Source: Deltaproteobacteria bacterium
GTDB lineage: Bacteria > Desulfobacterota > DSM-4660 > Desulfatiglandales > HGW-15
NCBI GenBank assembly: GCA_016932115.1
Contig: JAFGDM010000234.1
Coordinates: forward strand, 1-38,319
DNA length: 38,319 nucleotides
Reading direction: 5' to 3'
A model generated the notes under the pieces. That model saw nothing but the letters and a program-made list of their open reading frames with translations, was not told the DNA's origin and searched no databases. The translations under genes were made by a program, and so were the position numbers. Shown in pieces: positions 4,591 to 38,319 of this stretch (the first letter of the stretch is position 1; the number at the start of each line of letters is the position of its first letter).

Positions 4591-5322
4591 TTGCAGGCTG
4601 TCACGATGAAAGATCTCGGCCGCTCGAATTCGTTATTTGAAACTATTGAAAAACCGCCTGCAGGGGTATCCTGTGCGATTTTAGAGAGAAGGCGCCATCC
4701 GAGAAAAAAATCTTTCATTCCGATATCATTTGTCATGGGTCAAGAAAAATGCAGGGACTTTATCCTCAATATCAGTTCGGGAGGGTTGTTCATCGGAACC
4801 TCTGCCGGGCTTCCACAGGACTTAGAAATCGTCATGAGATTCCTGCATCCGTCGATTCGAAGGGACCTTTGTCTTGTCGGGCGGATTGCATGGGCGAATC
4901 AGGCAGGAATCGGCGTTCGATTTAAAAGGCTGGTTCAAAACGGGGATGGTTTTTCTATCCCTTTTGATGCCGAAGCGAGTCCATCCAAAGAACAGAAAAG
5001 GGAGGTAAAAAGCATGGGAAGGATCAAAAAGAAAAGAATTTGCTGGGACCTGTCAAGGAGCGACGATGTGGTAAAATACAGGCTTTACTGGTCTGAAGAC
5101 GGGATGGTTGATTATACGTCTAAATACGTGGATGTTGGAAATGTCAAGGAAATCGTTATCCCTGACGATATTCCTTCTTTTCCAAGGGTCAAGGGGGATG
5201 TAGCGCTGGGAATCACGGCAGTGAACGACGAAGGAAACGAATCGGATCTGACCAAAGTGACGGCGAAGATCAATTTTCTTGTGCCGGATGCACCGACGAA
5301 TATCGTGGTGGAAGAGGTGTAA
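4591..5322 (+). CDS. PilZ domain protein with C-terminal fibronectin type III-like domain
   Basis: This is a probable cyclic-di-GMP-responsive protein of 243 residues. Residues about 29-115 form a PilZ domain with the nucleotide-binding signature RRRHPRKK followed by NISSGGLF (the RxxxR and D/NxSxxG motifs) and a GIGVRF strand near its end. Residues from about 142 to 243 resemble a fibronectin type III fold (YRLYWSEDG, LGITAVNDEGNES, APTNIVV). The start is TTG 4591, chosen because AAGAAGG lies about 11 nt upstream; ATG 4606 is the alternative. A strong ribosome-binding site AGGGAGGT at 4999-5006 sits 7 nt before an in-frame ATG at 5014, exactly at the domain border. The FnIII part may therefore also be made alone. 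The downstream oxidoreductase begins 3 nt after the stop, so the two genes are probably coupled. Confidence 0.82.
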   Translation: MQAVTMKDLGRSNSLFETIEKPPAGVSCAILERRRHPRKKSFIPISFVMGQEKCRDFILNISSGGLFIGTSAGLPQDLEIVMRFLHPSIRRDLCLVGRIAWANQAGIGVRFKRLVQNGDGFSIPFDAEASPSKEQKREVKSMGRIKKKRICWDLSRSDDVVKYRLYWSEDGMVDYTSKYVDVGNVKEIVIPDDIPSFPRVKGDVALGITAVNDEGNESDLTKVTAKINFLVPDAPTNIVVEEV

Positions 5323-5325
5323 GCA

Positions 5326-22397: not shown

Positions 22398-23318
22398 GTG
22401 ATATTCAGCAAAACAGGTGAGGTGCGGGATGGGCTTTTCGTGATCGGCGCGGCCCATTTTCCTTTGTATCTTCTTAAAAGCGAGAAACCGCTTCTTGTCG
22501 AAGGAGGAATCAGTGTTCTCGGCGAGGTATATCGCAGGGATCTTGTGGATCGACTGGGGAACTTGCAACCCGAAATGATCCTTCTTACCCATGCCCATTT
22601 TGACCATTGTGGGGCTGTTTCATATCTGAAAAAAGCCTTTCCGGGCATGAAGATCGCCGCTTCTCCGGAATCGGCCGAAATTCTTAAAAGACCCAACGCC
22701 GTCAACCTCATGCGAACCCTGAGTGAGAGCGCAAGGGAATCCGTCAAAGGAATGGACAGGGCATTGCTCCTCAAAGACGCTTTCGAACCCTTTGAACCGG
22801 ATGTGATCCTCCGGGACGGAGACAGGATCGAAATCATGAGCGGCCTGAGCGTGCAGGTCCTACAAACGCCCGGCCACACCAGAGATTTCTTGAGCTACTA
22901 TATTCCGGAAAAGAAAATTCTTTTTGCTTCCGAAGCGGGAGGCTGCGCTGTTGGTTCGGGCAATATTTCCGTCGAATGTCTGACGGGCTTTGATGTTTAT
23001 TTGGCCTCGCTTAGGCGTTTAGCGGCTATGGAAGCGGAAATTTTGTGTCAGGGGCATTTCTTTGTTTACACTGATCAAGACGTGCAAGCGTTCTTTGCGA
23101 GATCCATCCGTTCGACGCTCGAGTTTAAGGAAATGGTGGAGAAGTCTTGGGATCAGGAGAGCGGTGATATGCAGCGGGTTATGGCCGGTATAAAGGAATT
23201 GGAATATGACCCTTTGCCGCAGCCCAAACAACCCGAGCAGGCCTATCTCGCCAATCTTGAAGCGAGAGTCAAAAGCATTGTCACGAGCATTGTCAACCCA
23301 GCAGCTTCTCTTGAATAA
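22398..23318 (+). CDS. MBL-fold (metallo-beta-lactamase superfamily) metal-dependent hydrolase
   Basis: This is a soluble metallohydrolase of 306 residues with unknown substrate. It has the zinc motif THAHFDHCG (HXHXDH), a second ligand region TPGHTRD, and a C-terminal His in CQGHFF. The strand that normally ends in the bridging Asp reads ILFASEAGG, so a Glu may replace it. The C-terminal 80 residues are helical and family-specific. I chose the GTG at 22398 because AGGGGGGA lies 4-5 nt upstream; an in-frame TTG at 22368 is the alternative. The last 26 nt overlap the end of gatB on the other strand. Nothing in the neighbourhood points to a specific role such as glyoxalase II or RNA processing. 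Confidence 0.85.
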   Translation: MIFSKTGEVRDGLFVIGAAHFPLYLLKSEKPLLVEGGISVLGEVYRRDLVDRLGNLQPEMILLTHAHFDHCGAVSYLKKAFPGMKIAASPESAEILKRPNAVNLMRTLSESARESVKGMDRALLLKDAFEPFEPDVILRDGDRIEIMSGLSVQVLQTPGHTRDFLSYYIPEKKILFASEAGGCAVGSGNISVECLTGFDVYLASLRRLAAMEAEILCQGHFFVYTDQDVQAFFARSIRSTLEFKEMVEKSWDQESGDMQRVMAGIKELEYDPLPQPKQPEQAYLANLEARVKSIVTSIVNPAASLE

Positions 23319-24753
23319 GCTTGGCCAGTTCCTTGGGATTGGCTTTGCCGCGTGTTTTTTTCATAACCTGGCCGATCAGGTAATCCATGGGTTTTGTCGA
23401 TCCTTCCCTGATCTTGGCGGTGACCTGGAGGTTTTCGGCGATCACTTCATCCACTAAACGCTCCAGCGTTTTTAAATCCCGGATAGGTTTGAGGTCCTTC
23501 TCGGCGATAACGGACCCGGCAGAGACCCCTCGTTCGAACATCTCCTCCAGGACCTGCCTTCCCATTTTTTCCGTGATCTCATCTCGTGTGACGGCATTGA
23601 CGAGTTCCGAGAAGCCCTCCGGCGGAACCGGGCACTGAGCTATTGAGAGAGAACTCTTCTTGAGAAGCCTGAAAAGATCTTTAATGATCCAACGGCTGAG
23701 TCTTTGCCGGTCTTGGACGAAAAGGGCGCACGCGCTAAAGTAGCCGGCCACGCGCTTGTCGCGTGTTAGAAGAAGTGCATCTTCTTTTGGCAAATTGTAT
23801 TGACCCACGAGCCTGTCCACACTTTGATCCGGAAGTTCCGGCATACTTCTCCTGATATTGTCCACAAAATCGTCGGGTAGTTCGATTTCCAGAAGATCAG
23901 GGTCCGGAAAGTAACGATAATCAGGAGCGTCCTCTTTGCTTCTCATGGGCAAGGTCAGGTGTTTGGCCTCGTCAAAAAGCCGTGTTTCCTGAAAAATCTC
24001 GCCGCCGCCCTCGATGATGCCTCGCTGTCTGGCGATTTCGTATTCCAGGGCTTCGCCAATGGCTTTGAATGAGGCCATATTTTTGATCTCAGACCGGTTT
24101 CCGTAAGCCTTCGAGCCCTTAGGCCTGAGGGAGATATTAACATCGCAGCGGAGCTGGCCTTTTTCCATGTTGCAGTCGCTGACCTCAATGTACCGCAAGG
24201 TCTGGCGCAATTTTTCCAGATAGGCGCGAGCTTCCAGAGTGGAGCGGAGCGGATTTTTCTCGTGGTCCGTCACAATTTCAAGAAGGGGCACGCATGATCG
24301 GTTGTAGTCCACTAAGCTGAACTCCGACGCTTCGAATGAATCAGATGAATGGACCAGTTTGCCGGCGTCTTCTTCCAGGTGCACACGTTTGATCCCCACG
24401 GCATAGGGTTGTCCGTCGCCAGAGGTGATTTCCAAGCGCCCCTCTTCACAGAAAGGTTTATCGTACTGTGATATCTGATACCCCTTCGGGAGATCGGGGT
24501 AAAAGTAGTTTTTCCTGGCAAAGCGGGAAAGCCGGTTGACGGTGCATTTGAGGGCAAGGCCGGCCCGCACGGTATACTCAACGGCTTTTTTGTTGAGAAC
24601 CGGGAGGGCGCCGGGCTGGCCCGTACAAACAGGGCATATAAGTGTGTTGGGCAAAGCATCGTAATCCACGGGACAGTCGCAGAAAAGCTTGGAATCGGTT
24701 TTCAATTCCACGTGCGTCTCAAACCCTATGATTACATCAAAGTCCATAGTCAT
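23293..24753 (-). CDS. gatB: Aspartyl/glutamyl-tRNA amidotransferase subunit B
   Basis: GatB is the kinase/transamidase subunit of GatCAB. It phosphorylates the misacylated Asp or Glu on tRNA and adds ammonia from GatA. The 486-residue product has VIIGFETHVEL, the zinc-binding cysteines CDC and CPVC, GQPGALPVLN, RKNYFYPDLPKGYQISQYD, HLEEDAGKL, DYNRSCVPLLEIVT, and the C-terminal YqeY-like tail ending in helical residues. Length is normal. Two nearby ATG codons (24753 and 24747) could start it and neither has a strong ribosome-binding site; I kept the first. It is the last gene of the aspS-gatC, gatA, gatB cluster, 77 nt behind gatA, and its end overlaps the MBL gene tail to tail. Confidence 0.96.
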   Translation of the reverse strand: MTMDFDVIIGFETHVELKTDSKLFCDCPVDYDALPNTLICPVCTGQPGALPVLNKKAVEYTVRAGLALKCTVNRLSRFARKNYFYPDLPKGYQISQYDKPFCEEGRLEITSGDGQPYAVGIKRVHLEEDAGKLVHSSDSFEASEFSLVDYNRSCVPLLEIVTDHEKNPLRSTLEARAYLEKLRQTLRYIEVSDCNMEKGQLRCDVNISLRPKGSKAYGNRSEIKNMASFKAIGEALEYEIARQRGIIEGGGEIFQETRLFDEAKHLTLPMRSKEDAPDYRYFPDPDLLEIELPDDFVDNIRRSMPELPDQSVDRLVGQYNLPKEDALLLTRDKRVAGYFSACALFVQDRQRLSRWIIKDLFRLLKKSSLSIAQCPVPPEGFSELVNAVTRDEITEKMGRQVLEEMFERGVSAGSVIAEKDLKPIRDLKTLERLVDEVIAENLQVTAKIREGSTKPMDYLIGQVMKKTRGKANPKELAKLIQEKLLG

Positions 24754-24830: not shown

Positions 24831-26270
24831 TCATCGATAAATGCTTTTCTCATACCCATAAGCAACGCGCAGCACCGTCTCTTCATCAAAGGCCTTTCCG
24901 ATGATTTGCATGCCGGCCGGCAGGCCTTTAATCGTTCCGCAGTTGATGCTCATTCCCGGCAGGCCTGATAGATTTAAAGAAGCTGTGTAAATATCCACAA
25001 GGTACATTTGAAGCGGTTCGGTAATCTTCTCCCCGATTCTGAAGGGCAGACATGGAGATACAGGGGTCACCATGCAGTCCACCTCCTCAAAGGCCTTGTC
25101 AAAATCCGCCTTAATGAGAGCTCTGACCTGTTGTGCCTTTAAATAGTAAGCATCATAATAGCCTGCGGAAAGGACGTAAGTCCCTAGCATGATCCTTCTT
25201 TTTACTTCCTTGCCGAGCCCCCGGCTCCTTGTGAGCTCATACATCATAATCGAATCGGTAACGTTTTCCCTCGTGCGAAAGCCGAATTTAACCCCGTCGT
25301 ATCGCGCAAGATTGCTGCTCGCCTCTGCCGTGGCGATCAGGTAATAGGTCGCAACGGCATAAGGAGTATGGGGAAGGGAAATTTCGACGATGTGGACGCC
25401 GTTATCTTCGAGAAGCGAGACAGCGGCCATTATCCGTTCCTTAATTCCGGGATCCAAGCCTTCGACGAAGTATTCCTTTGGAAGACCGATACGCAACCCT
25501 TTTAAACCCTTGTTCAGGGAACGGAGAAAGTCCGGGGTTTTCGTATGTGCGGAGGTTGCATCTTTTTTGTCATGCCCGGAGACGATGCCGAGCATGAGGG
25601 CGCAGTCTTCCACGCTTTTTCCAAGGACGCCCACTTGATCGAGCGAGGAGGCATAAGAGACGAGACCATAACGCGAAATGCGGCCGTAAGTGGGTTTGAT
25701 GCCTGCGATACCGCAGAATGCGGCAGGTAGCCTAATGGAACCACCCGTATCCGAGCCCAGCGCCACAATTGCCTCCCCGGCCGCCACAGCAGCCGCAGAT
25801 CCGCCACTCGATCCACCGGCCACCCTTTCAGGGTCAAGGGGATTGCGGGTCGGGCCGAAAGCACTATTTTCCGTGGAAGAGCCCATGGCGAATTCATCCA
25901 TGTTGGTTTTCCCTACAAGCACTGCTCCCGCCTTGAGGACCTTTTCTACCGCCGTTGCATCGTAAGGCGGGATATAATCTCTGAGCATTAAAGAACCGCA
26001 GGTCGTCCTTATGCCTTTGGTGCAAAGTATATCCTTGAACGCCACCGGAATGCCGTCGAGAGGAGAAAGGCTTTCATTGTGCCGGTACCGTCGATCCGCT
26101 TGATCGGCCAGTTTGAGGGCGAGCTCGCGGGTCCGCGTGATGTAAGCGTTGATCTTCTCTTCTCTTTCGTCCATACGCCTGAAAACAGATTCAGTGATCT
26201 CCCTGGAACTGACTTCCCGTTTCTGTAGCAATCGAGCGAGCTCCGATGCAGTTCTATCGCACAATTCCAT
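24831..26270 (-). CDS. gatA: Aspartyl/glutamyl-tRNA amidotransferase subunit A
   Basis: GatA is the glutaminase of GatCAB and releases ammonia that is channelled to GatB. The 479-residue product belongs to the amidase signature family. The full catalytic triad is present: Lys79 in PVAFKD, cis-Ser154 in AGGSSGGSAAAV, and Ser178 in GSDTGGSIRLPAAFCG. The C-terminal block ending GLPAGMQIIGKAFDEETVL is also conserved. The start is ATG with AGGG about 8 nt upstream. It lies 119 nt after the fused aspS-gatC gene and 77 nt before gatB, so all subunits are encoded in one cluster. Confidence 0.97.
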   Translation of the reverse strand: MELCDRTASELARLLQKREVSSREITESVFRRMDEREEKINAYITRTRELALKLADQADRRYRHNESLSPLDGIPVAFKDILCTKGIRTTCGSLMLRDYIPPYDATAVEKVLKAGAVLVGKTNMDEFAMGSSTENSAFGPTRNPLDPERVAGGSSGGSAAAVAAGEAIVALGSDTGGSIRLPAAFCGIAGIKPTYGRISRYGLVSYASSLDQVGVLGKSVEDCALMLGIVSGHDKKDATSAHTKTPDFLRSLNKGLKGLRIGLPKEYFVEGLDPGIKERIMAAVSLLEDNGVHIVEISLPHTPYAVATYYLIATAEASSNLARYDGVKFGFRTRENVTDSIMMYELTRSRGLGKEVKRRIMLGTYVLSAGYYDAYYLKAQQVRALIKADFDKAFEEVDCMVTPVSPCLPFRIGEKITEPLQMYLVDIYTASLNLSGLPGMSINCGTIKGLPAGMQIIGKAFDEETVLRVAYGYEKSIYR

Positions 26271-26389: not shown

Positions 26390-28540
26390 TCAGCTTTCAA
26401 TAATTTTGGGGACCCTGAAATAGTTTCCTTCTCTCACGGGTGCATTGTCCAGGATGGATGCACTTGTGTCACACTTCCCCGCTTTATCCTCGCGCCACGC
26501 ATTGGTCAGAGGCAATACATGGCTCATAGGCTTGACCGACTCCGTATCCACCGTTTTGAGGGTCTCCATGTATTGCAGGATGGCATTGAGGTCTTCCCGA
26601 TAGGAAAAGACTTCCTCCTCGGCAAGGGTCAGGCGTGCAAGCTTCGCAATATGGCGCACACGATCCAGGGATATTTCCTCTGCCCGATCGATGGATCGGC
26701 CTCGGCTCTCAGCAGCCATGCCTGATGCATCCTCCGTATAAGGCATAACTAGGCCCAGTTCCTTGAGCTGAGAGTCCGATACGAAAGAGGGGGCCTGGGT
26801 CAAAGGGCAATAAGCGCTACGGTTCTTTGGAAAAGCGATGATCTCCCGGATGGAAGAAGCCTTTAGAATCATGGCTACAACCCTGTCAAGGCCGATGGCC
26901 AATCCTCCATGGGGCGGCGCACCGTATTCCAGAGCTTTGAGAAAGAATCCGAACTTGGATTCCTGTTCTTCTTCCTTGAGGCGCAAAGCCAGAAAGACCT
27001 TTTTTTGAAGATCCATCCTGTGAATGCGAATGCTGCCTCCCCCCAGTTCCTCGCCGTTGATGACTAGATCGTAGGCCCTTGATTTAAGGCTAAGCAAGGC
27101 TTTGTGGTCGGCCGGATCAAAATCTGTGCGGTCGGGCATGGTGAAAGGATGATGTTGTGAACTGATCCCTTCCTCCTTTAGCTCAAAGAGCGGAAATTCG
27201 GTGATCCAGACAGGACAGTAGCGATCTTCGGGGATCAAAGCCAGTCTTTGCGCCATGTGAAGCCTCAAGCCGCAGAGCGCCTTATTGACCAAATCTTTTG
27301 AAAGATCCGCTATTAGGATGAACACATCGCCGTCTTCGGCGCGGAATCGATTTTTCAAAGCCTCCTGTTCCCGAGCCGTAAAAAACTGGACGATGTTGGA
27401 TTCGAGACCGCCGTTCAGGACTTTCATCCAGGTCATGCCTCCGGCGCCGAATGAAGGGGCGATCCTCATGGCATAGTCGTTTTGGAGGACGTTCTTGCTC
27501 AGGGTTGATGCCATGCCCTTGATGCAATATCCTTTCACCACACCGCCACCTTTAATGATCTGCTTGAAAACGCTGTACCCTGTGGAGCGCAAATCTTCGG
27601 TCACGTCCTCAAAGGTGAGATCGAAGCGTAGGTCGGGCCGGTCCGAACCGTATCTCTCCATTGCTTCCTCATAGGGCATTCTCGGGAAAGGCCTGGGTAG
27701 GGCGATGCCGCCCGTGGTGAACATCCTTGTCGTCAGTTCTTCCACCACTTCATAGATAAATTCCTCGTCAATAAAGGAGGCCTCCAGATCGAGCTGGGTG
27801 AACTCCGGTTGCCGGTTAGGCCTGAGATCTTCATCTCTGAAGCACCGGGCAACCTGGAAATAGCGGTCCATACCGCCCATCATAAGAAGCTGCTTGAAAA
27901 GCTGGGGTGACTGGGGAAGGCAGTAAAATTTTCCTTTATGAATACGGCTGGGGACCAGATAATCCCTGGCCCCCTCGGGAGTGCTTTTGGTGAGAAAGGG
28001 CGTTTCAACCTCGATGAAGTGGAGCTCATCGAGATACCGACGGATGCATTTCATGATCTCGTATCGCTTGAGGAGGAATTCTTGAGATGAAGGCCGGCGA
28101 AGATCCAGGTAGCGGTACTGGAGCCTGAGTTCTTCGTCCACCCTTTCGGGATTTGCCTGAATGTCTTCACCAAAGACAATTGCTTTCTCGGAGATCTTGA
28201 AGGGTAAAACCCGTGATGGGGAAAAAATCTCCAGGTCCAGGGCAAAGACTTCGATGAGGCCGGTTTTGAGGTTTGCGTTTTCCGTTCCCTTGTCCCGCAG
28301 GGCCACTTTCCCAAACACCTGAATGACATATTCTTCTTTGAGCGATGAGGCTTTGTCATAATTCCCCGCGCTAAGAGCGGGATTGAAGACCACCTGGACC
28401 ACCCCTCGTGTATCTCTCAGGTGGATAAACAGAAGGCTACCGTGATCACGGATAGCATCGACCCACCCCATGAGTAGGACTTCCTGCCCTACTTGGGAAA
28501 AATTCAGGTCTCCGCAGTAAATTCGTCGTCGCCAATCCAT
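26390..28540 (-). CDS. aspS-gatC: Fused aspartyl-tRNA synthetase / amidotransferase subunit C
   Basis: One 716-residue open frame joins two proteins. Residues 1 to about 600 are a bacterial-type AspRS with the OB-fold anticodon domain, class II motif 2 (FRDEDLRPNRQPEFTQLDLE, about 234-253), the inserted GAD domain and motif 3 (GGLAIGLDRVVAMI, about 545-560). Residues about 623-716 are GatC (VRHIAKLARL, LNAILQYMETL, MSHVLPLTNAWREDK). His33 in RDHGSL and Gly85 in RDKGTEN sit at the positions that mark non-discriminating AspRS, which also charges tRNA-Asn. The fused GatC could tether the amidotransferase to the synthetase. An in-frame ATG at 26719 with GGAGG 11 nt upstream might also yield free GatC. 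The ATG at 28540 has AAGG 7 nt upstream and a promoter before it. Confidence 0.93.
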   Translation of the reverse strand: MDWRRRIYCGDLNFSQVGQEVLLMGWVDAIRDHGSLLFIHLRDTRGVVQVVFNPALSAGNYDKASSLKEEYVIQVFGKVALRDKGTENANLKTGLIEVFALDLEIFSPSRVLPFKISEKAIVFGEDIQANPERVDEELRLQYRYLDLRRPSSQEFLLKRYEIMKCIRRYLDELHFIEVETPFLTKSTPEGARDYLVPSRIHKGKFYCLPQSPQLFKQLLMMGGMDRYFQVARCFRDEDLRPNRQPEFTQLDLEASFIDEEFIYEVVEELTTRMFTTGGIALPRPFPRMPYEEAMERYGSDRPDLRFDLTFEDVTEDLRSTGYSVFKQIIKGGGVVKGYCIKGMASTLSKNVLQNDYAMRIAPSFGAGGMTWMKVLNGGLESNIVQFFTAREQEALKNRFRAEDGDVFILIADLSKDLVNKALCGLRLHMAQRLALIPEDRYCPVWITEFPLFELKEEGISSQHHPFTMPDRTDFDPADHKALLSLKSRAYDLVINGEELGGGSIRIHRMDLQKKVFLALRLKEEEQESKFGFFLKALEYGAPPHGGLAIGLDRVVAMILKASSIREIIAFPKNRSAYCPLTQAPSFVSDSQLKELGLVMPYTEDASGMAAESRGRSIDRAEEISLDRVRHIAKLARLTLAEEEVFSYREDLNAILQYMETLKTVDTESVKPMSHVLPLTNAWREDKAGKCDTSASILDNAPVREGNYFRVPKIIES

Positions 28541-29292: not shown

Positions 29293-29318
29293 GAAATTGC
29301 GGTGAAACCGCAAATTTC
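29293..29318 (+). promoter_or_regulatory. Hairpin in the glnA leader
   Basis: GAAATTGCGG (29293-29302) pairs with CCGCAAATTTC (29308-29318), with one bulge and the loop TGAAA. It lies between the sigma-54 promoter and the ribosome-binding site GGGGAGG and could affect mRNA stability or translation. It does not match a glutamine riboswitch that I know. Confidence 0.4.
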
Positions 29319-29346
29319 TAATTCATTATTATGGGGAGGAAAAATC

Positions 29347-30771
29347 ATGAGCGAAACAAGGTCAGGAAAAGAGATTTTGAGTATGATAAAATCAGAAAAA
29401 ATAGAGGTGGTGGATCTCCGATTCATGGACTTTCCCGGACTGTGGCAACACTTTTCCATTCCTGCAAGGGAGGTCGATGAGGATACCTTTGAAAGCGGTT
29501 TGGGTTTTGACGGGTCGAGCATCCGGGGCTGGCAGGTCATAAATGAATCGGACATGCTTGTGAGGCCTGTTCCCGAGACGGCCTTCATTGATCCCTTTTT
29601 CGAAGCAAAGACCTTAATTATGGTCTGTAACATCTGTGATCCGGTCACCGGAGAAGACTACACAAGGGACCCTCGAAACATTGCCAGAAAAGCGGCGAAC
29701 TACCTCAAAAGCACGGGCATTGCGGAGGTGGCCTATTTCGGCCCTGAAGCGGAGTTTTTTATTTTCGATGATATCCGGTTCGACCAGAATGAGCACGAAG
29801 GTTATTACCACATCGATTCGGTGGAGGGGCGATGGAATGCAGGCAGGGTGGAGAACCCCAACCTGGGATACAAGATTCGATACAAGGAAGGTTATTTTCC
29901 GGTGCCCCCTACTGACAGCCAGCAGGATATCCGTAGCGAAATGATGCTGACGCTGGAAAAGATCGGGGTGCTCATTGAAGCACAACATCATGAAGTGGCC
30001 AGCGGCGGTCAGGCGGAAATCGATATGCGTTTTGCGCCCATCGTGCAGATGGCGGACAATCTTTTGAAGTATAAATATGTGATCAAGAATGTGGCCAAAA
30101 AACACGGCAAGACCGTGACTTTTATGCCCAAACCTCTCTTCAGCGACAACGGCTCGGGCATGCATGTCCACACCTCCCTGTGGAAAGGCAACCAGAACCT
30201 TTTTGCAGGGGACGGATACGCAGGGCTTTCTCAAATGGCCATGTATGCCATCGGCGGTATTCTGAAACACGCGCCTTCGCTCCTCTCCATCACCAGCCCG
30301 ACCACCAATAGCTATAAACGACTGGTTCCCGGCTTCGAGGCCCCTGTCAACCTAGCGTACTCAAGGCGCAACAGGAGCGCAGCGGTGCGGATTCCGCTTT
30401 ACTCCAACTCACCAAAAGCAAAGCGGTTTGAATTTCGTTGCCCGGACCCAAGCTGCAATCCCTATATGGCGTTCTCCGCAATCTTAATGGCCGCCATTGA
30501 CGGCATTCAGAACAAAATTGATCCGGGCGAGCCGCTGGACAAAGACATTTATGACCTGCCTGCGGAGGAACTGGCAAAGGTTCCTCAAACGCCGGGCTCC
30601 TTGCGAGAGGCGCTCAAAGCGCTTGAAAACGATCACCGATACCTGTTGAAGGGCGATGTGTTCACTTCCGATGTGATTGAGACATGGATTTCATATAAGA
30701 TGGAAAGAGAAGTAACGGCTGTAGACCTCCGTCCTCATCCATGGGAGTTTGCCCTGTACTATGATATATAG
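29347..30771 (+). CDS. glnA: Type I glutamine synthetase, adenylylation-regulated
   Basis: GlnA makes glutamine from glutamate, ammonia and ATP as a cytosolic dodecamer. The 474-residue product has the beta-grasp [10 protein letters not shown], the active-site blocks [24 protein letters not shown], the ATP-binding loop [27 protein letters not shown] and [13 protein letters not shown]. The adenylylation site is DKDIYDLP with Tyr402, so it belongs to the GSI-beta class. I chose ATG 29347, with GGGGAGG upstream; the open frame extends back to 29302 but the family N-terminus starts here. A sigma-54 promoter precedes it, and the adenylyltransferase gene glnE follows 123 nt later with no terminator between, so the enzyme and its modifier are probably co-expressed under nitrogen control. 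Confidence 0.97.
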
Positions 30772-30894: not shown

Positions 30895-33800
30895 GTGACC
30901 TTTGAGTATGAAAGATCCGGGTCGGAGCCGCAAGACGCCTTAGAGGCGCTACAGGTCGAGCATCTGGAGAGATTGAGGAAGCGGTATTTCAAGATCTTCG
31001 GGGAAAAAGATCTGGATCGCCACGTTCGTACCCTTGCCCGCCTCAGCGTTGAGCAACCTGTCGAGGTTCTCCTTGAGCCAAAGCAAGATGGGAATTTTGA
31101 CTGTACAGTCCTGGCTTTCGATTACCCCGGTGAGTTTTCTATCATCACCGGTGTTCTGGCCAGTGCCGGCTTTGATATTCATTCAGGCGATGTTTTCACC
31201 TACCAGGGCGTTCCTCGTCAAAAACGGGTACGCCGACGAATCCTGGAGGAAGTGCGCGAACAGGAAGAGATTTACGAGAGAAAGAGGATTATCGATCATT
31301 TTACAGGAATCTTTGAAAGCTCTCTTTCCTTTGATGTCTGGGCTAAAGAGCTGCGCGAAACACTAGTAAGCGTTGTCAGGCTCCTGGAGCGAGGGGATGA
31401 ATCGTCCGTCCTCGAGGCCAGGAAAAGGGTTCATGAAAGGGTCATTCGCAGGCTTACTCACTTCCGCGGGGACGGCTCAGCGGTTCTTTATCCTGTTGAA
31501 GTAGAGATCGATAATACGGGGGAATCCTTTACCCGGATCAGAGTGATCGCGCAGGATACGCCGGCATTCCTTTACAGCTTGTCGAATGCGTTGTCTTTGC
31601 ATGAACTTTCCATCGAGCATGTGAGTATTCGGACAATTCACGGTAGGGTTGAAGATGTTATCGACCTTGTGGATCTTCGAGGCCGTCCAATTAGCGATCC
31701 CGAGGTCCTGAACCGTGTAAGGCTCTCCGTGCTTCTCACAAAACAGTTTACGTATTTTCTTGATGTAGCCCCCGACCCTTTCACCGCCTTCTGCCGCTTC
31801 GACCACCTCCTGGCCGATATGGCAGCGAAGAATGACAAGGCAACATGGCAAGAACGGCTTAGAGATCCGAGGTTTCTACAGGATCTTGCACGACTTCTCG
31901 GGGCCAGTGATTTTTTGTGGGAGGATTTCGTGCGCCTCCAATATGAGACCCTTCTTCCTATGCTCGGCCCGTATACGGAAAAAGGTCGTTTGCTGGAAGC
32001 TCGGGAAGACCCGCAGGAGAGGCTGGGGAAGGCTCTCAGTGACGCCTGTTTCCTGGAGGAGCAAGGAAAGAAATTAAACGATTTCAAGGATAGGGAAATT
32101 TTCCTGCTGGACTTGGATCATATTTTGAACCCAAGGGCTGATTTTAAAAGTCTTTCAGCAGGGCTGACAGGGCTTGCGGAAGCGGTGGTGAGCAAGGCCG
32201 CCGCCTTGGTCTATGAGGATATGATACACCGTTTCGGGCGTCCTCGAACCGTGGGCGGTCTAGAGGCAAGGTACGCCGTTCTGGGGTTGGGCAAGCTTGG
32301 CGGTGCGGCCCTTGGCTATGCCTCGGATCTGGAATTGCTTTTCATTTATAGCGACAGCGGTAAGACGGACGGTGAAAGGTCCATTGACAATTCCGATTTT
32401 TTTGCACGCCTGGTCCGGGGTGTGGCCGACCTGATTCACACGAAAAGGGAAGGCATTTTTCATCTGGATCTCAGGCTGCGCCCCTACGGTAATGCCGGCC
32501 CGATTGCGTGCAGTCTCGAGGGCTTTTGTCGCTACTACGGGTCAGGAGGACAGGCCCATGCCTATGAGCGCATGGCCCTCGTGAACATGCGAGCCATCAG
32601 CGGAGATCCTGCCTTTGGTAAGCAACTGGAACGGCTGAGAGACGAGATTGTCTATTTTTCAGGCGACATTCACCTTCAGGACCTCCAAGGGCTGAGGGAA
32701 AAGCAATTCTCTGAAAAGACAAGAGGGGGGCGCCTGAACGCCAAGTTTAGCCCCGGCGGGCTTGTAGACCTTGAATACAGTGTGCAAATGCTACAAATGA
32801 CCCACGGTAAAGACATCCCTGCATTGAGAACGCCCTTAATTCATGAAGCTCTGAGCGCGCTGTCCGACGCGGGGGTTCTCTCAGGGCGGGAAACAGGCCG
32901 CCTAGTAACCGCCTATGAATTCCTCCGGCGGCTCATAAACAGCATGCGGATGCTTCGAGGCTCCGCTCAGGATCTCTTTCTTCCAGACAGGGAATCCCTT
33001 GAATATGCCCATTTGGCAAGGCGCATGGGTTACGGTGGGCCGGCCGCCTTGGACCCGGAGGAAAGGCTGCATCTGGATCTGGAGAACTGCATGGCTGCAG
33101 TTCGGGTTTTCGTGGAACACCATTTCGGAAGGAATTCTATACCCGGCCCGGAGACAGGGACTGTTGCCGATCTTGTCCTTTCCGACAGGACGGCTCCGCA
33201 ACTCAAGAAGCGTGTTCTGGAAAAGGCAGGATTCAAGAACGTGGCGCGGGCCTATGTAAACCTCAAAAATCTTGCCGGTGACGGTGCTCGCAGGGAGACT
33301 TTTTCGAAACTTGCGCTCCTTGCCGTTGAGATTTTATCGAGAAAACCGGATCCGGACATGGCACTTAATAACTGGGAGCGATATATTCTCGCTCTTATAA
33401 GCCCGCAGTTTCACTTCAATCTTCTTCTCTCCCAACCCATGCGCCTCGAGATTCTTTTGGGGATTTTTTCAGGGAGCCAGTTTCTCTCAGATACGCTGGT
33501 GAGAAATCCCGGTTTTCTGGACTGGGTCGTCATCCCTGAGATCCTCCATCGAACGAGGAAGTCAAAGCATATCGAGGAGGAACTGAGGCGAGGTGCGGAA
33601 GTTTGCTCAGGTCACAGGGAGTGGCTCAACAAGCTGCGACGTTTGAGAAGAAGGGAAATCCTCCGCATCGGCACCAGGGATATCTGCCTAGGTGTTTCCA
33701 CACAAGATGTGGTTGCCGAGCTTTCACGGCTTGCGGATGCTTTCGTACAGGTGACCCTGGAACAGGCCTTACAAAGGCATAGAGTCCCGAAGGAGGTGAG

Positions 33801-34680
33801 GGATCGTTTCTGCATTCTCGCTCTGGGAAAGCTGGGCGGCATGGAGCTCAATTACAGTTCCGATATCGATCTCCTCGGCCTCTGGGATGACCGGGACGCT
33901 CCCGGGGGGACAGGGGATAAAACGATTTATGCCCGGCTCATGGAGGAGGTGCGCTCGGATCTTTCCCGGCATACCGAGGAAGGTTATGCCTACAGGGTTG
34001 ACCTGCGCTTAAGACCCTTTGGCCGTGCGGGCGAACTGGTGCCTTCTTTTTCAGCGCTTGTATACTACTACCGGGAAAAGGCTTCCCTGTGGGAAGTTCA
34101 GGCCGCTCTTAAGGCTCGTCCCCTTGCAGGAAACGTAAGGCTCGGTCATGCGCTCCTCGAACAGATGCGGGCCCTTTGGATTAAACAGAGACCTCATGAA
34201 AGCATTGTGCGCTCCATCGACAGGATGCGGGAGGCGGCCATAAAAACGTCCTCCGGCTTCACCCCGGACGTTAAGAACGGCGCCGGAGGGATGAGGGATG
34301 TGGAATTTTTGGTTCAGGGCCTCCAGCTTATCCATGCTCAGAGCAGGCCTGCCGTTCTGGAAGGCAATACCCTGAATGCCCTTGATTTGCTTTGCGGCGC
34401 GGGCGTTCTGTCTGCAAATTCAGTCGCGGTGCTGAAAGAAGACTATCTGTTTTTACGACGGGTGGAGCATTATTTGCAAATCATGGAAGATCAGCAGATT
34501 TATGCGGTTCCCAAGGACCGCGAGCAACTCAGAGCGCTTTCGAAAAGAGTCCTGGGCGTGGAAAGCGATGAAAATCAATTTATGGAATCCTTGGGAGCCT
34601 GTTTTTCCCGTGTCCGGGATCATTATAAAAAGTATCTCCTGGGTGAAAAAGGTGAGACTTTGAAATCAAAAATGGATTGA
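30895..34680 (+). CDS. glnE: Glutamine synthetase adenylyltransferase/deadenylylase with N-terminal ACT-like region
   Basis: GlnE adds and removes AMP on the GlnA tyrosine. This copy has 1261 residues, against about 950 in E. coli. Residues from about 296 carry the usual two nucleotidyltransferase halves: the first active site GLGKLGGAALGYASDLELLF (about 464-483) and the second LGKLGGMELNYSSDIDLLG (about 977-995), each followed by RLRPFG- or RLRPYG-type blocks. The extra 295 residues hold two stretches that resemble ACT domains, at about 54-103 (VLAFDYPGEFSIITGVLASA) and 200-283 (VIAQDTPAFLYSLSNALSLH, RTIHGRVEDVIDLVDLRG); the second is similar to the GlnD glutamine sensor. The start is GTG with AGGA 8 nt upstream. 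No glnD or glnB lies in the window. Confidence 0.93.
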   Translation: MTFEYERSGSEPQDALEALQVEHLERLRKRYFKIFGEKDLDRHVRTLARLSVEQPVEVLLEPKQDGNFDCTVLAFDYPGEFSIITGVLASAGFDIHSGDVFTYQGVPRQKRVRRRILEEVREQEEIYERKRIIDHFTGIFESSLSFDVWAKELRETLVSVVRLLERGDESSVLEARKRVHERVIRRLTHFRGDGSAVLYPVEVEIDNTGESFTRIRVIAQDTPAFLYSLSNALSLHELSIEHVSIRTIHGRVEDVIDLVDLRGRPISDPEVLNRVRLSVLLTKQFTYFLDVAPDPFTAFCRFDHLLADMAAKNDKATWQERLRDPRFLQDLARLLGASDFLWEDFVRLQYETLLPMLGPYTEKGRLLEAREDPQERLGKALSDACFLEEQGKKLNDFKDREIFLLDLDHILNPRADFKSLSAGLTGLAEAVVSKAAALVYEDMIHRFGRPRTVGGLEARYAVLGLGKLGGAALGYASDLELLFIYSDSGKTDGERSIDNSDFFARLVRGVADLIHTKREGIFHLDLRLRPYGNAGPIACSLEGFCRYYGSGGQAHAYERMALVNMRAISGDPAFGKQLERLRDEIVYFSGDIHLQDLQGLREKQFSEKTRGGRLNAKFSPGGLVDLEYSVQMLQMTHGKDIPALRTPLIHEALSALSDAGVLSGRETGRLVTAYEFLRRLINSMRMLRGSAQDLFLPDRESLEYAHLARRMGYGGPAALDPEERLHLDLENCMAAVRVFVEHHFGRNSIPGPETGTVADLVLSDRTAPQLKKRVLEKAGFKNVARAYVNLKNLAGDGARRETFSKLALLAVEILSRKPDPDMALNNWERYILALISPQFHFNLLLSQPMRLEILLGIFSGSQFLSDTLVRNPGFLDWVVIPEILHRTRKSKHIEEELRRGAEVCSGHREWLNKLRRLRRREILRIGTRDICLGVSTQDVVAELSRLADAFVQVTLEQALQRHRVPKEVRDRFCILALGKLGGMELNYSSDIDLLGLWDDRDAPGGTGDKTIYARLMEEVRSDLSRHTEEGYAYRVDLRLRPFGRAGELVPSFSALVYYYREKASLWEVQAALKARPLAGNVRLGHALLEQMRALWIKQRPHESIVRSIDRMREAAIKTSSGFTPDVKNGAGGMRDVEFLVQGLQLIHAQSRPAVLEGNTLNALDLLCGAGVLSANSVAVLKEDYLFLRRVEHYLQIMEDQQIYAVPKDREQLRALSKRVLGVESDENQFMESLGACFSRVRDHYKKYLLGEKGETLKSKMD

Positions 34681-34704
34681 CAAAATGTTGAGATAGAGTA
34701 AATC
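34677..34704 (+). promoter_or_regulatory. Weak promoter candidate before the metF cluster
   Basis: A consensus TTGACA (34677-34682) overlaps the glnE stop and is followed after 16 nt by TAAATC (34699-34704), a poor -10. If used, the terminator at 34756-34798 would lie in the leader of mvhD. Confidence 0.25.
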
Positions 34705-34755
34705 TGACATTGATTCCGCACAAAGATGTTCGGAAATCAATCGAGCAATCACGAC

Positions 34756-34798
34756 AAAGGCGTCTTTTCCTCTAACGAGAGAGGGGGGCGCCTTTTTT
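34756..34798 (+). terminator. Rho-independent terminator between glnE and mvhD
   Basis: AAAGGCG (34756-34762) pairs with CGCCTTT (34789-34795), with further pairing of CCTCT and AGAGG inside, and a run of T ends the stem. It lies 15 nt before the mvhD start, leaving no room for a promoter between the terminator and the gene. Confidence 0.8.
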
Positions 34799-34813: not shown

Positions 34814-35257
34814 ATGAACGACAGGGAAAGATTGACTGTAGCCTTTTTTTATTGCCGTAACATTCCGGAAAGCGGCGAGACAGAGCGACAGGCCCTTGAA
34901 AAGGAATATGGACCGTCCATAAGGCTTTTCCCAATCCCATGCAGCGGAAGGCTGGACCCTGTTCACCTGCTCAGTGCCCTGGAGAAGTTTGCCGATGCAG
35001 CCTACCTTATCGCCTGCCCGGAAGGGGCTTGCCGATACTTTGAAGGGAACAGGAGGGCCGGGAAAAGGGTAGAAAGAACAAAAGAGATGATTGCCATGAT
35101 CGGTCTTGAGCCGGAAAGACTTGGTATGGTGATAAACACAAAGAAGAGGCCCAAAGGACTCGGTGTAATTACCGCCGAAATTCTGGAGCGAGTTAAAAGC
35201 CTTGCTCCATCGCCGGTACTCAAGAATAGCCGGGTGGAAGAGGAGAAACCATTATGA
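34814..35257 (+). CDS. mvhD: MvhD/FrhD-type [2Fe-2S] electron-transfer subunit
   Basis: Proteins of this family carry electrons between a hydrogenase or dehydrogenase and heterodisulfide reductase HdrA. The 147-residue product has the family segments PCSGRLDPVHLLSALEKFAD and ACPEGACRYFEGNRRA, with three cysteines there and one near the N-terminus (FFYCRNI). The N-terminal pair of cysteines usual in MvhD is reduced to one, so cluster binding may differ. I chose ATG 34814 with GGAAG 7 nt upstream; the in-frame ATG at 34799 lies in the terminator tail. The gene overlaps metV by four bases, so it is coupled to the methylene-H4folate reductase genes. No hdrA lies upstream, where glnE is found instead. 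Confidence 0.85.
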   Translation: MNDRERLTVAFFYCRNIPESGETERQALEKEYGPSIRLFPIPCSGRLDPVHLLSALEKFADAAYLIACPEGACRYFEGNRRAGKRVERTKEMIAMIGLEPERLGMVINTKKRPKGLGVITAEILERVKSLAPSPVLKNSRVEEEKPL

Positions 35258-35922
35258 TTACGGCAGAACAGAAGCCTCTGGATGAGATCCGGGAAATGAT
35301 CGCTCCATACAAGCGAATTCTTGTCCTCGGTTGTGGTTCCTGTGTTGCTGAGTGCGCTGCAGGCGGAGAGAAGGAGACAGGCATGCTAGCTTCCATCCTT
35401 CGCATGGCGGCGAAGATGGAGGGGAGGGAGGTGCTTATTAATGAAAAGACCCTCGAACGCCAGTGCGTAAAGGACTTTGTTATCCTCCTTGATGACATCA
35501 TCCAGGACTATGACGCTTTGCTCTCCCTTGGCTGCGGCGCAGGGGTGCAGGCGGTCGGCGATTGCTTTCCGGAGATCCCAATCATCCCGGCCCTCAACAC
35601 CGAATTCCTGGGTGAAACAAAAGACCAGGGGCTTTGGTTGGAGAACTGTCTGGGATGCGGGGATTGCAAGCTTTATCATTTTGGCGGGATCTGTCCTCTT
35701 GCCCGGTGCTCGAAACATCTTCTCAACGGCCCTTGCGGCGGCTCCGTGGGTGGCAAATGCGAAATCAATCCTGAAATCCCTTGCGCATGGCAGCTCATCA
35801 TTGACAGGGTGGAACAGCAGGGCGGGTTTGAGAGGCTGGAGGGTATATTTCCTCCTAAAGACTGGTCTAAAAAGCAGGGTCTGGGACCGAGAAGGATTAT
35901 TAGGGAGGATCAGCAAAGGTGA
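35254..35922 (+). CDS. metV: MetV, methylene-tetrahydrofolate reductase-associated Fe-S/zinc protein
   Basis: MetV is the small partner of anaerobic MetF and is homologous to the MTHFR C-terminal domain family. It links the flavoenzyme to its electron donor. The 222-residue product has an N-terminal part with LVLGCGSCVAEC and SLGCGAGVQ, and a C-terminal cysteine-rich region (CLGCGDC, about 132-138; ICPLARCSK; NGPCGGS; GGKCE; IPCAW) that matches the conserved metal-binding end of the family. The ATG overlaps the mvhD stop (ATGA) and the gene's own stop overlaps the metF start (GTGA). This tight packing supports one complex of MvhD, MetV and MetF. Confidence 0.9.
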   Translation: MITAEQKPLDEIREMIAPYKRILVLGCGSCVAECAAGGEKETGMLASILRMAAKMEGREVLINEKTLERQCVKDFVILLDDIIQDYDALLSLGCGAGVQAVGDCFPEIPIIPALNTEFLGETKDQGLWLENCLGCGDCKLYHFGGICPLARCSKHLLNGPCGGSVGGKCEINPEIPCAWQLIIDRVEQQGGFERLEGIFPPKDWSKKQGLGPRRIIREDQQR

Positions 35923-36830
35923 GCCGATTTAAAAGCGTATTGGATCAAGGAGCATTCGCGGTAACCGCAGAATGCGGCCCCCCCAAGGGGGCGGATCCTG
36001 ATGTGATCATGAAAAAGGCGGAGTTGTTGAAGGGCAAGGTGGACGCCGTCAATGTGACCGACAATCAGACCGCCGTCGTCCGAATGTCCAGTCTCGCCGC
36101 TTGCGTGCTTCTCAAGCGCCAGGGCCTGGATCCCATTCTCCAAGCGGTTGTTAGGGACCGCAACAGGATTGCATTGCAATCCGACATTCTTGGCGCATCG
36201 GCTCTGGGGATCAGGAATATTTTGTGTCTCTCCGGGGACCACCAGAGCTTCGGCAATCAACCTCAGGCGCTTGGAGTCTTTGATCTTGATTCAATCCAAT
36301 TTGTGCAGGTGGTTCAGAGGATGCGGGATCAAGGGGCTATCCTGGGAGGAGAGCGCTTGAGCCGGGCGCCGGACGTCTTCATCGGTGCTGCGGCCAATCC
36401 TTTTGGCGACCCCTTCAACTTCAGGTTGGTGCGGCTTGCGAAAAAGGTCGCTGCAGGGGCCGACTTCATACAGACCCAGTGCATCTACAATCTGGAGAGA
36501 TTCGAGAGGTGGATGGCCATGGCCCGGGAAAGGGGGTTGACGGAAAAAGTGCACATCCTAGGAGGAGTGACTCCGCTAAAGTCGGCCGGTATGGCTAAGT
36601 ACATGAAAAAAAAGGTGGCCGGCATGGATGTGCCGGACGGGATAATCCGGAGAATGGATGGTGCGCCTGCCAAAACACAGGCCGAGGAAGGCCTGAAGAT
36701 TTGTGTCGAAACCATTCAGCGGCTAAGAGAAGTACGTGGGGTGAAGGGGGTCCACATTATGGCTATCGACTGGGAGGATATGGTGGGAGAGCTTGTGGAG
36801 AGAGCGGGTCTTCTGCCGAGGCCGAATTGA
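35919..36830 (+). CDS. metF: Methylenetetrahydrofolate reductase
   Basis: MetF reduces 5,10-methylene-H4folate to 5-methyl-H4folate, an FAD enzyme of the Wood-Ljungdahl methyl branch and of methionine synthesis. The 303-residue product has the TIM-barrel start AVTAECGPPKGAD, with Glu18 at the position of the catalytic Glu of E. coli MetF. It also has NVTDNQ, LSGDH with a conserved Asp, the FQTQ-type strand DFIQTQCIYN, and LGGVTPLKS. GTG is the start codon, with GGAGG 9 nt upstream inside metV. The MetV partner and the MvhD gene indicate that electrons come from an Fe-S complex rather than directly from NADH. In acetogens such enzymes run with HdrABC-MvhD or RnfC partners; here the following gene is an Fe-S flavoprotein. 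Confidence 0.95.
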   Translation: MSRFKSVLDQGAFAVTAECGPPKGADPDVIMKKAELLKGKVDAVNVTDNQTAVVRMSSLAACVLLKRQGLDPILQAVVRDRNRIALQSDILGASALGIRNILCLSGDHQSFGNQPQALGVFDLDSIQFVQVVQRMRDQGAILGGERLSRAPDVFIGAAANPFGDPFNFRLVRLAKKVAAGADFIQTQCIYNLERFERWMAMARERGLTEKVHILGGVTPLKSAGMAKYMKKKVAGMDVPDGIIRRMDGAPAKTQAEEGLKICVETIQRLREVRGVKGVHIMAIDWEDMVGELVERAGLLPRPN

Positions 36831-36888
36831 CGATGGTGCAGGGCGCACCCTGCGAGTTGCACCGTATTAAGTGGTCGAGGTTTTCCAC

Positions 36889-38277
36889 ATGCCGAAAAAG
36901 TACATGATTCATACCGCGACGGTTCCCCATCGCTTCAAGGCGATTACCAGGTTCGGCATCATAGCCTGGGAGGAAGGGTGTCTGAAGTGCCCCGTGTGCG
37001 TGAAAAAGGAGTGTGTGTATAAGGTCTATGAGCGCCGCGGGTTGGACGCGGGGCAGATGATAGATTCTCTGGATAACGAGTGCATGAACTGTCTGAGGTG
37101 CGTCCAGGGCTGCCCCAAGGAACTGATTCATAAGAGCATTAACCCGGAATATCAAGCCCTTGGGGATGTTCACTATACTCCGGACATCCTTGCGCGGCTG
37201 TGGTACCAGGCTGAAACCGGGAAGATTCCCGTGTCCGGGGCCGGGTATCCCGGCCCCTTCAGCGGCACAGGCTTTGACGGTATGTGGACCGACATGTCTG
37301 AAATCGTCCGGCCCACAAGAGACGGCATTCACGGCCGGGAGTATATCAGCACGGCCGTAGATCTAGGAAGAACCCCGCGAAACCTTGCTTTCGATGAGAA
37401 GGGAAATCTCCTGACGGAATTCCCTCCTCTAATGGATATCCCGCTGCCCATTATCCTGAGAGTTCCTTCGTTCGGCTCCTTTGGTGAAGAGGTAATCAAG
37501 GGATGGGCTATGGCCGCCCGGCGTCTTGGGACCTTTCTTGCTCTTCCTCTTGAACGAACGGGTGGAAAGACCGCAGAATATTTCCCCCATCTGATGCCGA
37601 TTATTTCCGATCAAGGGAAAATGCCGTCAATCCGAGTCGATACGGTAAGGTTTATGGAAGCGCCCCTGGAAGGAAAGGTGACGGACAGGGCTAAAAAGGC
37701 GTTTCCCTCTGCGGTACTGTCAATCCATCTCCCCATGGTAAAGGGTGTAGAAGAGCGAGCCCTTCGCGTCGCCGCTTCAGGAGCCTCTGTCATTCATCTT
37801 GAAGCGAGCTGTGACGGCAAGGCCTTGGATGACTCTTCAAGGCCTATGAAGGACGTAATCCGATCTGTTCACAGGACCCTGGTGGAAGGCTGCGTGCGGG
37901 ATGAGGTCACGCTTCTTGTGAGCGGCGGCATCGCCATGGCTGAGCATGTAGCCAAGGCGGTCATCTGCGGGGCCGATGCGGTGATCGTTGATTTTCCCAT
38001 TCTTGTTGCCTTGGAATGCCGCATGTGCCGACGCTGTACGCGGGGGCTTTTGTGCCCTGTGGAAATCGAAAAGGCTCCCTCCTCTTGGGTTGCGGCACGG
38101 GTTTTTAACCTTATCGGCGCATGGCACAACCAACTTCTCGAACTGATGGGTGCCATGGGGATTCGAGATGCCCGGAGGCTGAGGGGAGAAACCGGTCGTG
38201 CAATGTTTTTTGAAGAATTGGACGAGGCCACCTTCGGGTCTATGGGTGAGGTGAAAGAAGGGTATGAACTGCTCTAG
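36889..38277 (+). CDS. Glutamate-synthase-like FMN protein with two N-terminal [4Fe-4S] motifs
   Basis: This 462-residue protein joins a ferredoxin-like module to a TIM-barrel FMN domain of the GltS family. Cys31, Cys34, Cys37, Cys42 and Cys65, Cys68, Cys71, Cys75 (the last with a following Pro) form two cluster motifs. The barrel ends with LLVSGGIAMAEHVAKAVICGADAV, shortened here to its GGI and GADAV strands, typical of FMN binding. A third cluster of Cys377, Cys380, Cys383 and Cys389 in ECRMCRRC...LLCPVEI replaces the GltS [3Fe-4S] motif. I chose ATG 36889 with GAGG 8 nt upstream; GTG 36871 is the alternative. It lies 58 nt after metF on the same strand. It may be an electron-transfer partner of MetFV-MvhD instead of an ammonia-assimilating enzyme; this is inference. 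Confidence 0.82.
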   Translation: MPKKYMIHTATVPHRFKAITRFGIIAWEEGCLKCPVCVKKECVYKVYERRGLDAGQMIDSLDNECMNCLRCVQGCPKELIHKSINPEYQALGDVHYTPDILARLWYQAETGKIPVSGAGYPGPFSGTGFDGMWTDMSEIVRPTRDGIHGREYISTAVDLGRTPRNLAFDEKGNLLTEFPPLMDIPLPIILRVPSFGSFGEEVIKGWAMAARRLGTFLALPLERTGGKTAEYFPHLMPIISDQGKMPSIRVDTVRFMEAPLEGKVTDRAKKAFPSAVLSIHLPMVKGVEERALRVAASGASVIHLEASCDGKALDDSSRPMKDVIRSVHRTLVEGCVRDEVTLLVSGGIAMAEHVAKAVICGADAVIVDFPILVALECRMCRRCTRGLLCPVEIEKAPSSWVAARVFNLIGAWHNQLLELMGAMGIRDARRLRGETGRAMFFEELDEATFGSMGEVKEGYELL

Positions 38278-38319
38278 AAACAATCTTCCCGAGGCGGTTG
38301 CGGCGCCCTCGCGATTTCG

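Follow-up and report, generated by a model that had tools for sequence, protein, structure and literature searches.

The 38,319-nucleotide contig JAFGDM010000234.1 of a Deltaproteobacteria bacterium of the sulfate-reducer type (assembly GCA_016932115.1), referred to below as the window, carries at its end a cluster of mvhD, metV, metF, and a fourth gene, P0004. MetV and MetF make up a methylene-tetrahydrofolate (methylene-THF) reductase of the MetVF family, and the locus raises the question of which partner exchanges electrons with MetFV-MvhD when HdrABC is not encoded beside it, and in which direction. The original prediction, made from the window alone, had rightly recorded that the cluster lacks HdrABC: none of the hdrA(BC) genes of the known MetVF-MvhD-HdrABC systems was found within the window. 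The answer that we favour, with somewhat more weight for it than against it, is that glutamate synthase (GltS) receives its electrons from MetFV-MvhD by way of P0004, so that it would act as a methyl-folate-driven glutamine oxoglutarate aminotransferase (GOGAT).

Genes downstream of P0004

The window represents a complete contig (C275) of a draft genome in 323 contigs, and it ends 42 bases past P0004; therefore, the genes beyond P0004 cannot be read from the window itself. In the relatives, the operon has the order mvhD-metV-metF-P0004-GltS(FMN)-GltS(GXGXG/amidotransferase), often followed by carA-carB and preceded by glnA or by glnA-glnE. The locus L019 shows the order of the window unbroken, from gatC-aspS, glnA, and glnE through mvhD, metV, metF, P0004, GltS(FMN), and GltS(GXGXG) to carA. 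Another contig of the same genome as the window, C15, ends within a start-less GltS(FMN) gene, after which come GltS(GXGXG), carA, carB, and purF; its glutamate synthase genes are located at L004:9201-10607 and L004:6492-9167. In the final 56 bases of the window, a reading frame opens, MNCSRNNLPEAVAAPSRF, which matches the beginning of GltS(FMN) in the relatives (..PEVVRTPSRFRNPIGKYRL), and C15 resumes at KYRF, so that a gap of about 11 bases between C275 and C15 follows from the reading frame. No exact overlap between the two contig ends was found; the join therefore rests on synteny and the reading frame, both of which speak strongly for it. Strong support was also obtained for the assignment of the cluster to the front half of a GOGAT operon of the composition leader-mvhD-metV-metF-P0004-gltS(FMN)-gltS(GXGXG/GATase)-carAB. 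The suggestion that HdrABC could lie beyond the window was ruled out by the glutamate synthase genes that come next in the relatives and on C15, and no hdrABC was found directly downstream in the same operon.

The GltS(FMN) proteins of these operons retain the motifs GEGG, QVATGLFGV, KYAQGAKPG, and GGTGAAP and match the GltS of Azospirillum brasilense with E = 5.6e-51. An FMN subunit with the QGAKPG, GEGG, and GGTGA motifs beside a subunit with GXGXG and glutamine amidotransferase parts, as found on C15, corresponds to the archaeal-type glutamate synthase. This is the one catalytic GltS of the genome, in which no other GltB-type match of comparable score and one further weak domain match were found. 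At G000:C239:610-999 and 5036-5791, a weak third Glu_synthase-domain protein (452 aa frame) was noted about 4 kb away from the only ELFV (glutamate/leucine dehydrogenase family) gene of the genome.

A search for relatives of P0004 yielded 80 loci, around which gene order was compared. In 68 of them, the gene for the catalytic GltS subunit comes next after the P0004 homologue. Of the remaining 12, three were simply missed by the automatic count, seven reach the end of their contig, and two (L077 and L081) are truly without GltS. These two loci, from ANME-1, encode a GlcD-type protein and a P0004 homologue with no GltS immediately downstream, and in L081 an HdrA-like gene is located about 3 kb further on.

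Identity of P0004

The P0004 protein contains two ferredoxin motifs (C37/40/43/48 and C71/74/77/81) and a third, C-terminal motif (C383/386/389/395). All eight ferredoxin cysteines are retained throughout the family, and conservation of the four in the C-terminal motif is about 90%. The catalytic and FMN-site motifs of GltS (GEGG, QVATGLFGV, KYAQGAKPG, and GGTGAAP) are missing from P0004 and its family, the QGAKPG region having been lost by a deletion of about 45 residues. Its sequence identifies P0004 as a paralogue of the catalytic FMN subunit of GltS that has degenerated. In a FoldSeek search, the AlphaFold model of P0004 (pLDDT 82.8, pTM 0.84) was placed among the FMN-type TIM barrels (GltS 7mfm, TMq 0.45), a match that describes the fold only and is not evidence of a flavin. 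Despite this fold, the motif loss ruled out P0004 as a catalytic FMN enzyme, and the protein is probably not a flavoprotein. The earlier description of the fourth gene as GltS-like, with two ferredoxin clusters and another set of four cysteines at the C-terminus, stands; the FMN binding ascribed to it finds no support, given the lost motifs.

In six of the 80 loci (L040, L050, L051, L052, L054, and L063), P0004 and GltS(FMN) form one polypeptide of 970–1000 residues, and the same fusion is present in further genomes of the phylum (L091-L100). Because of this fusion to GltS(FMN) in several genomes, there is good evidence that P0004 is a glutamate synthase subunit. Its three cluster sites might serve as an electron-transfer adaptor between dehydrogenase modules and GltS, a role that we rate as evenly balanced. 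The segment 139-159 of P0004 (WTDMSEIVRPTRDGIHGREYI, window about 37285-37347) is invariant in all 66 sequences, bacterial and archaeal, has low confidence in the model, and would fit a partner-binding segment.

Alternative modules upstream of P0004

MvhD and/or MetV/MetF are encoded upstream of P0004 in 55 of the 80 loci: MvhD, MetV, and MetF in 28, MvhD alone in 13, MvhD-MetV in 4, and partial or contig-cut sets in the rest. A GlcD-type dehydrogenase of about 611–616 residues, with FAD_binding_4, FAD-oxidase_C, and Fer4_8 domains, occupies this position in another 21, and none of the 80 loci contains both modules together. Both look like Fe-S-wired dehydrogenases. The GlcD form was found in ANME-1, in Methanocella-type archaea, and in some Deltaproteobacteria; in ANME-1/Methanocella-type archaea (L057, L059, L069, L075, L083, L087, L089, and others), the order is glnA, the GlcD-type gene (611–648 aa), the P0004 homologue, and GltS.

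The linkage of the fourth protein to metF was found to be conserved. Of the 80 wider loci, 37 carry metF, and it lies directly upstream of 36 of the 37 P0004 orthologues in 85 same-order genomes and is 70–79% identical there, as against at most 67% for other MetFs; the exception, G016/L012, has mvhD only. Linkage by chance or in close relatives only was ruled out by these 36 orthologues together with the lineages of the MetF tree described below, and contamination of the metagenome-assembled genome is an unlikely cause, since 36 of the 37 orthologous loci agree. In the relatives, hdrA was found neither just ahead of mvhD nor in the interval from metF to GltS, and it is GltS that follows. In L055, an 832-residue HdrA-like protein (L055:15572-18070) is encoded directly after an MvhD-P0004-GltS operon without MetFV and is perhaps another input module. 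No RnfC-like domain was found in the window genes or in the neighbours scanned.

In these comparisons, metFV is the swappable part of the operon, and GltS is the constant partner of P0004. They bear on the direction assumed in the original prediction, in which P0004 is an electron-input module for the reductase; P0004, together with GltS or ferredoxin, would then give electrons to MetFV for the reduction of methylene-THF, possibly by flavin-based bifurcation. The MetVF enzymes of acetogens are indeed reductive, some of them take reduced ferredoxin (PMC8515935, PMC8760232), and P0004 has ferredoxin clusters. However, the GltS motifs for flavin and catalysis are missing from P0004, in which a bifurcation site is not evident and whose constant partner is GltS, not MetF. 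Moreover, MetV is encoded three more times in the genome, which has HdrA-MvhD-MetVF at C279 and C137 as well as one CdhC/AcsB gene; the catabolic methyl branch therefore has its own, HdrA-linked enzymes. An FMN module for bifurcation or confurcation that serves MetF is thus not supported, and we consider electron flow towards MetF improbable. Since GltS is the constant and sometimes fused partner, the motifs of P0004 are lost, and metFV can be exchanged, the direction is likely the reverse, with MetFV-MvhD as the electron input of GltS.

Integrity and lineages of MetF, MetV, and MvhD

The residues E18, D107, and Q187 are invariant or nearly so in the GltS-linked MetF proteins and align with positions of ordinary MetF that serve catalysis or folate binding. 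MetV retains the same 13 cysteines as the HdrA-linked copies, and MvhD retains four. With the MetF catalytic residues in place and a MetV bearing DUF5981 and the conserved cysteines, the pair appears to be of the MetVF type. Ordinary bacterial MetF oxidises NAD(P)H and bacterial GltS normally draws its electrons from NAD(P)H, which would suit a MetF that serves GltS as its NAD(P)H dehydrogenase module and is not used as a folate enzyme. This possibility seems to us very doubtful: E18, D107, and Q187 are kept in the GltS-linked copies, and NADH binding is reported to be lost in MetVF-type MetF (PMC9430772).

The distances of MetF, MetV, and MvhD track those of P0004 (r = 0.78–0.89). In a tree of 71 MetFs, a GltS-linked clade of 26 from Desulfobacterota, Nitrospirota, and Spirochaetota was recovered with support of 94/90; the remaining GltS-linked MetFs fall into two smaller clades, of 7 (85/100) and of 4 (100/100) members, except for one that stands alone on a long branch. 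On this tree, the label of GltS linkage changes 3 times, compared with 23.8 times in shuffles. The GltS-linked MetFs thus form lineages of their own apart from the HdrA-linked ones; a single origin of all GltS linkage need not be assumed. On C137, a 291-residue MetF-like protein (L010:7486-8361) has as its neighbour a large double HdrA into which a GltD/NfnB-like part is inserted. In the MetF-like protein, D107 is replaced by E, Q185 by V, and Q187 by N; it is extremely long-branched in the tree and is possibly a non-catalytic MetF paralogue.

Proposed electron path

From the operon membership and its conservation, the fusion of P0004 with GltS, the motif loss in P0004, and the retained MetF residues, we infer a physical complex, an electron path, and its direction. 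MetF would oxidise methyl-tetrahydrofolate to methylene-tetrahydrofolate, and the two electrons would pass over the Fe-S clusters of MetV to MvhD and on to the three cluster sites of P0004. P0004 would hand them to the catalytic subunit with its Fe-S clusters and FMN, where 2-iminoglutarate would be reduced to glutamate. The methylene/methyl-THF couple, at -200 mV (PMC9430772; PMC8760232), would be too positive for the reduction of NAD, whereas glutamate formation would be exergonic enough to use it. In this way, low-value electrons from one-carbon (C1) oxidation would pay for nitrogen assimilation, and NADPH and ferredoxin would be spared.

Several points weigh against this proposal. In the presence of 2-oxoglutarate, the potentials of GltS are -190 mV for [3Fe-4S] and -270 mV for FMN (PMC8097209); the FMN is slightly below the -200 mV couple, and therefore an internal uphill step is needed, to be pulled by imine reduction. 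MetFV is dispensable, as is seen from the 13 loci with MvhD alone, including L012, whose P0004 is 66% identical to that of the window, and from the 21 loci with the GlcD-type module instead. C275 and C15 were joined by inference and not by sequencing. The AlphaFold model of the natural P0004-GltS fusion is moderate (pLDDT 72.9, pTM 0.67), which is too weak for describing an interface, and no interface with MetFV or MvhD was obtained. Finally, free ferredoxin could donate electrons to P0004 and to the catalytic subunit through their ferredoxin domains, in which case MetFV would only be co-regulated.

Such co-regulation without electron coupling, with a ferredoxin-fed GltS and with MetFV-MvhD as a biosynthetic supply of methyl-folate on a shared nitrogen-regulated transcript, is the rival that we take most seriously, although we consider it unlikely. 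It would account for operons without MetFV (L012, L030, L038, and others), for the eight-cysteine ferredoxin domains in both GltS-type subunits, and for the other nitrogen genes, carAB and glnA, that share the cluster. However, nearly all bacterial loci keep MvhD even without MetFV, and elsewhere MvhD is an electron link and not a metabolic enzyme. The GlcD-type Fe-S/FAD dehydrogenase takes the exact place of MvhD-MetFV and never stands alongside it (21 versus 55 loci), and for a second ferredoxin-like GltS paralogue there would be no known need.

If MetFV-MvhD is the electron input of GltS, a soluble MetVF-MvhD-P0004-GltS complex may be widespread in anaerobic Desulfobacterota, Nitrospirota, and Spirochaetota, its degenerate GltS subunit docking interchangeable modules, either MetVF-MvhD or, in ANME-1 and Methanocella-type archaea, a GlcD-type FAD/Fe-S protein; we see about equal grounds for accepting and for doubting this generalisation. 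The chances are likewise about even that such a complex represents a fifth MetVF type and a GOGAT independent of both NAD(P)H and ferredoxin.

Leader RNA and neighbouring genes

The leader between glnE and mvhD gave a sub-threshold match to Rfam RF00625 (Pseudomonas "sRNA P11"; sRNA, small RNA) with 26.2 bits and E = 0.0003 for that stretch. Published ANTAR targets have A at position 1 and G at position 4 of hexaloops and are mostly found upstream of nitrogen genes, including glutamate synthase (PMC3369931). The predicted structure of the leader shows this arrangement, with two hexaloop hairpins that carry A1 and G4 and with the second overlapping a terminator (Table 1). Of 48 leaders from these operons, 14 show the dual-hairpin pattern, where 0.15 was expected from shuffles, as compared with 4 of 462 upstream of other open reading frames (ORFs); as some of the scanned leaders are related and the test was post hoc, this contrast is only indicative. 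The scan used the published stems of at least 3 bp (PMC3369931), a setting chosen after the motif had been seen, and a stricter initial scan gave one locus. A stricter form of the pattern, with a P2 stem of GAC/GUY, fits 11 leaders. The genome encodes one ANTAR protein, of the GAF-ANTAR type.

The putative ANTAR-type leader fits nitrogen control of the predicted target operon. As ANTAR targets lie mostly on nitrogen genes, it points to nitrogen assimilation, and not energy conservation, as the role of the operon. The ANTAR leaders of glutamate synthase in Desulfotomaculum reducens (PMC3369931) likewise have dual A1/G4 hexaloop hairpins, with P2 overlapping the terminator, ahead of a glutamate synthase operon; here, the pattern occurs in Desulfobacterota and MetFV lies within the regulated operon. 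The P11 consensus itself contains the hexaloops CCUUC-AACGAU-GAAGG and GGAC-AAAGGC-GUCC plus a sigma-54-like GUUGGCAC..UGCAU; instead of an sRNA, Rfam P11 may thus represent an ANTAR leader.

The 4-bp overlaps of mvhD with metV and of metV with metF, as well as the position of glnE directly upstream, were as originally described, and coordinates and Pfam matches bear them out. A glnA of the window's type also precedes the operon in L019, where the position of glnE is matched too; a different GlnA type precedes it in L029, L038, L041, L057, L069, and others. Further upstream, a single 716-residue ORF (window 26390-28540, minus strand) encodes an aspartyl-tRNA synthetase fused with a C-terminal GatC-like part. 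It adjoins gatA (24831-26270) and gatB (23293-24753), and a similar long ORF is present in L028.

Table 1. Features of the predicted operon and adjoining genes in the window
Feature	Position	Strand	Remarks
glnA, glutamine synthetase (GS)	29302..30771	+	neighbour
glnE, GS adenylyltransferase	30895..34680	+	neighbour, directly upstream of the cluster
ANTAR-type hairpin P1 (predicted), hexaloop AAAGAU	34716..34733	+	within the sub-threshold Rfam P11 match 34666-34792
ANTAR-type hairpin P2 (predicted), GAC-AAAGGC-GUC	34753..34764	+	overlaps the 5' arm of the terminator
Leader terminator, intrinsic (predicted)	34756..34798	+	mutually exclusive with P2; fold z = -4.06
mvhD (FlpD family)	34814..35257	+	predicted electron-transfer link; 4 conserved Cys; Pfam FlpD 83 bits
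metV	35254..35922	+	MetVF Fe-S subunit; Pfam DUF5981 116 bits; 13 conserved Cys
metF	35919..36830	+	methylene-tetrahydrofolate reductase catalytic subunit; Pfam MTHFR 131 bits; E18, D107, Q187 conserved
P0004	36889..38277	+	degenerate glutamate synthase FMN-subunit paralogue, putative Fe-S adaptor; conserved start ATG 36889 (MPKKY), upstream alternative GTG 36871
Catalytic glutamate synthase FMN subunit, start (MNCSRNNLPEAVAAPSRF...)	38264..38319	+	cut by the contig end; rest on C15 (locus L004, minus strand from its end)

Significance and comparison with known systems

The proposed reading joins C1-folate metabolism and ammonia assimilation in one predicted electron-transfer complex. If it is true, energy-limited anaerobes make glutamate on electrons of about -200 mV that are unable to reduce NAD, sparing NADPH and ferredoxin. 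For the MetVF family, the physiological electron partners of which are under debate, it would mean a new partner; it would also identify a probable adaptor subunit that is paired with different dehydrogenases, ANME-1 archaea included. The operon is carried by a cultured strain, Desulfospira joergensenii DSM 10085 (locus L072), which makes the reading testable. In the literature searched, in which subscription journals are thinly covered, neither MetFV nor MvhD was found to be described together with glutamate synthase, and this is not proof of novelty.

The MetVF enzymes belong to the four described types of methylene-THF reductase, type IV being MetVF-MvhD-HdrABC (PMC8760232). With the type IV systems of Moorella thermoacetica and Sporomusa ovata, the locus shares the mvhD-metV-metF order, homologous proteins, and the cluster cysteines of MetV; in contrast, P0004 and glutamate synthase replace HdrA(BC), and the MetFs belong to distinct lineages. 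The Type III MetVF-RnfC2 of Acetobacterium has the same MetVF core with an extra electron-transfer partner, which here is not an RnfC-like protein. A MetVF-MvhD without HdrABC and with glutamate synthase would be a further type of methylene-THF reductase. As in the archaeal-type glutamate synthase with its separate Fer4-FMN and GXGXG/amidotransferase subunits, the catalytic subunit keeps GEGG, KYAQGAKPG, and GGTGA, whereas the extra degenerate FMN-subunit paralogue P0004, the dedicated upstream dehydrogenase modules, and the absence of GltD set the present operons apart. F420-dependent GltS clusters with FrhB paralogues have been proposed in ANME (PMC9012536). In both cases, GltS is accompanied by its own unusual electron-input protein; the input is FrhB/F420H2 in those clusters and would be MetFV-MvhD or a GlcD-type protein in the operons described here.

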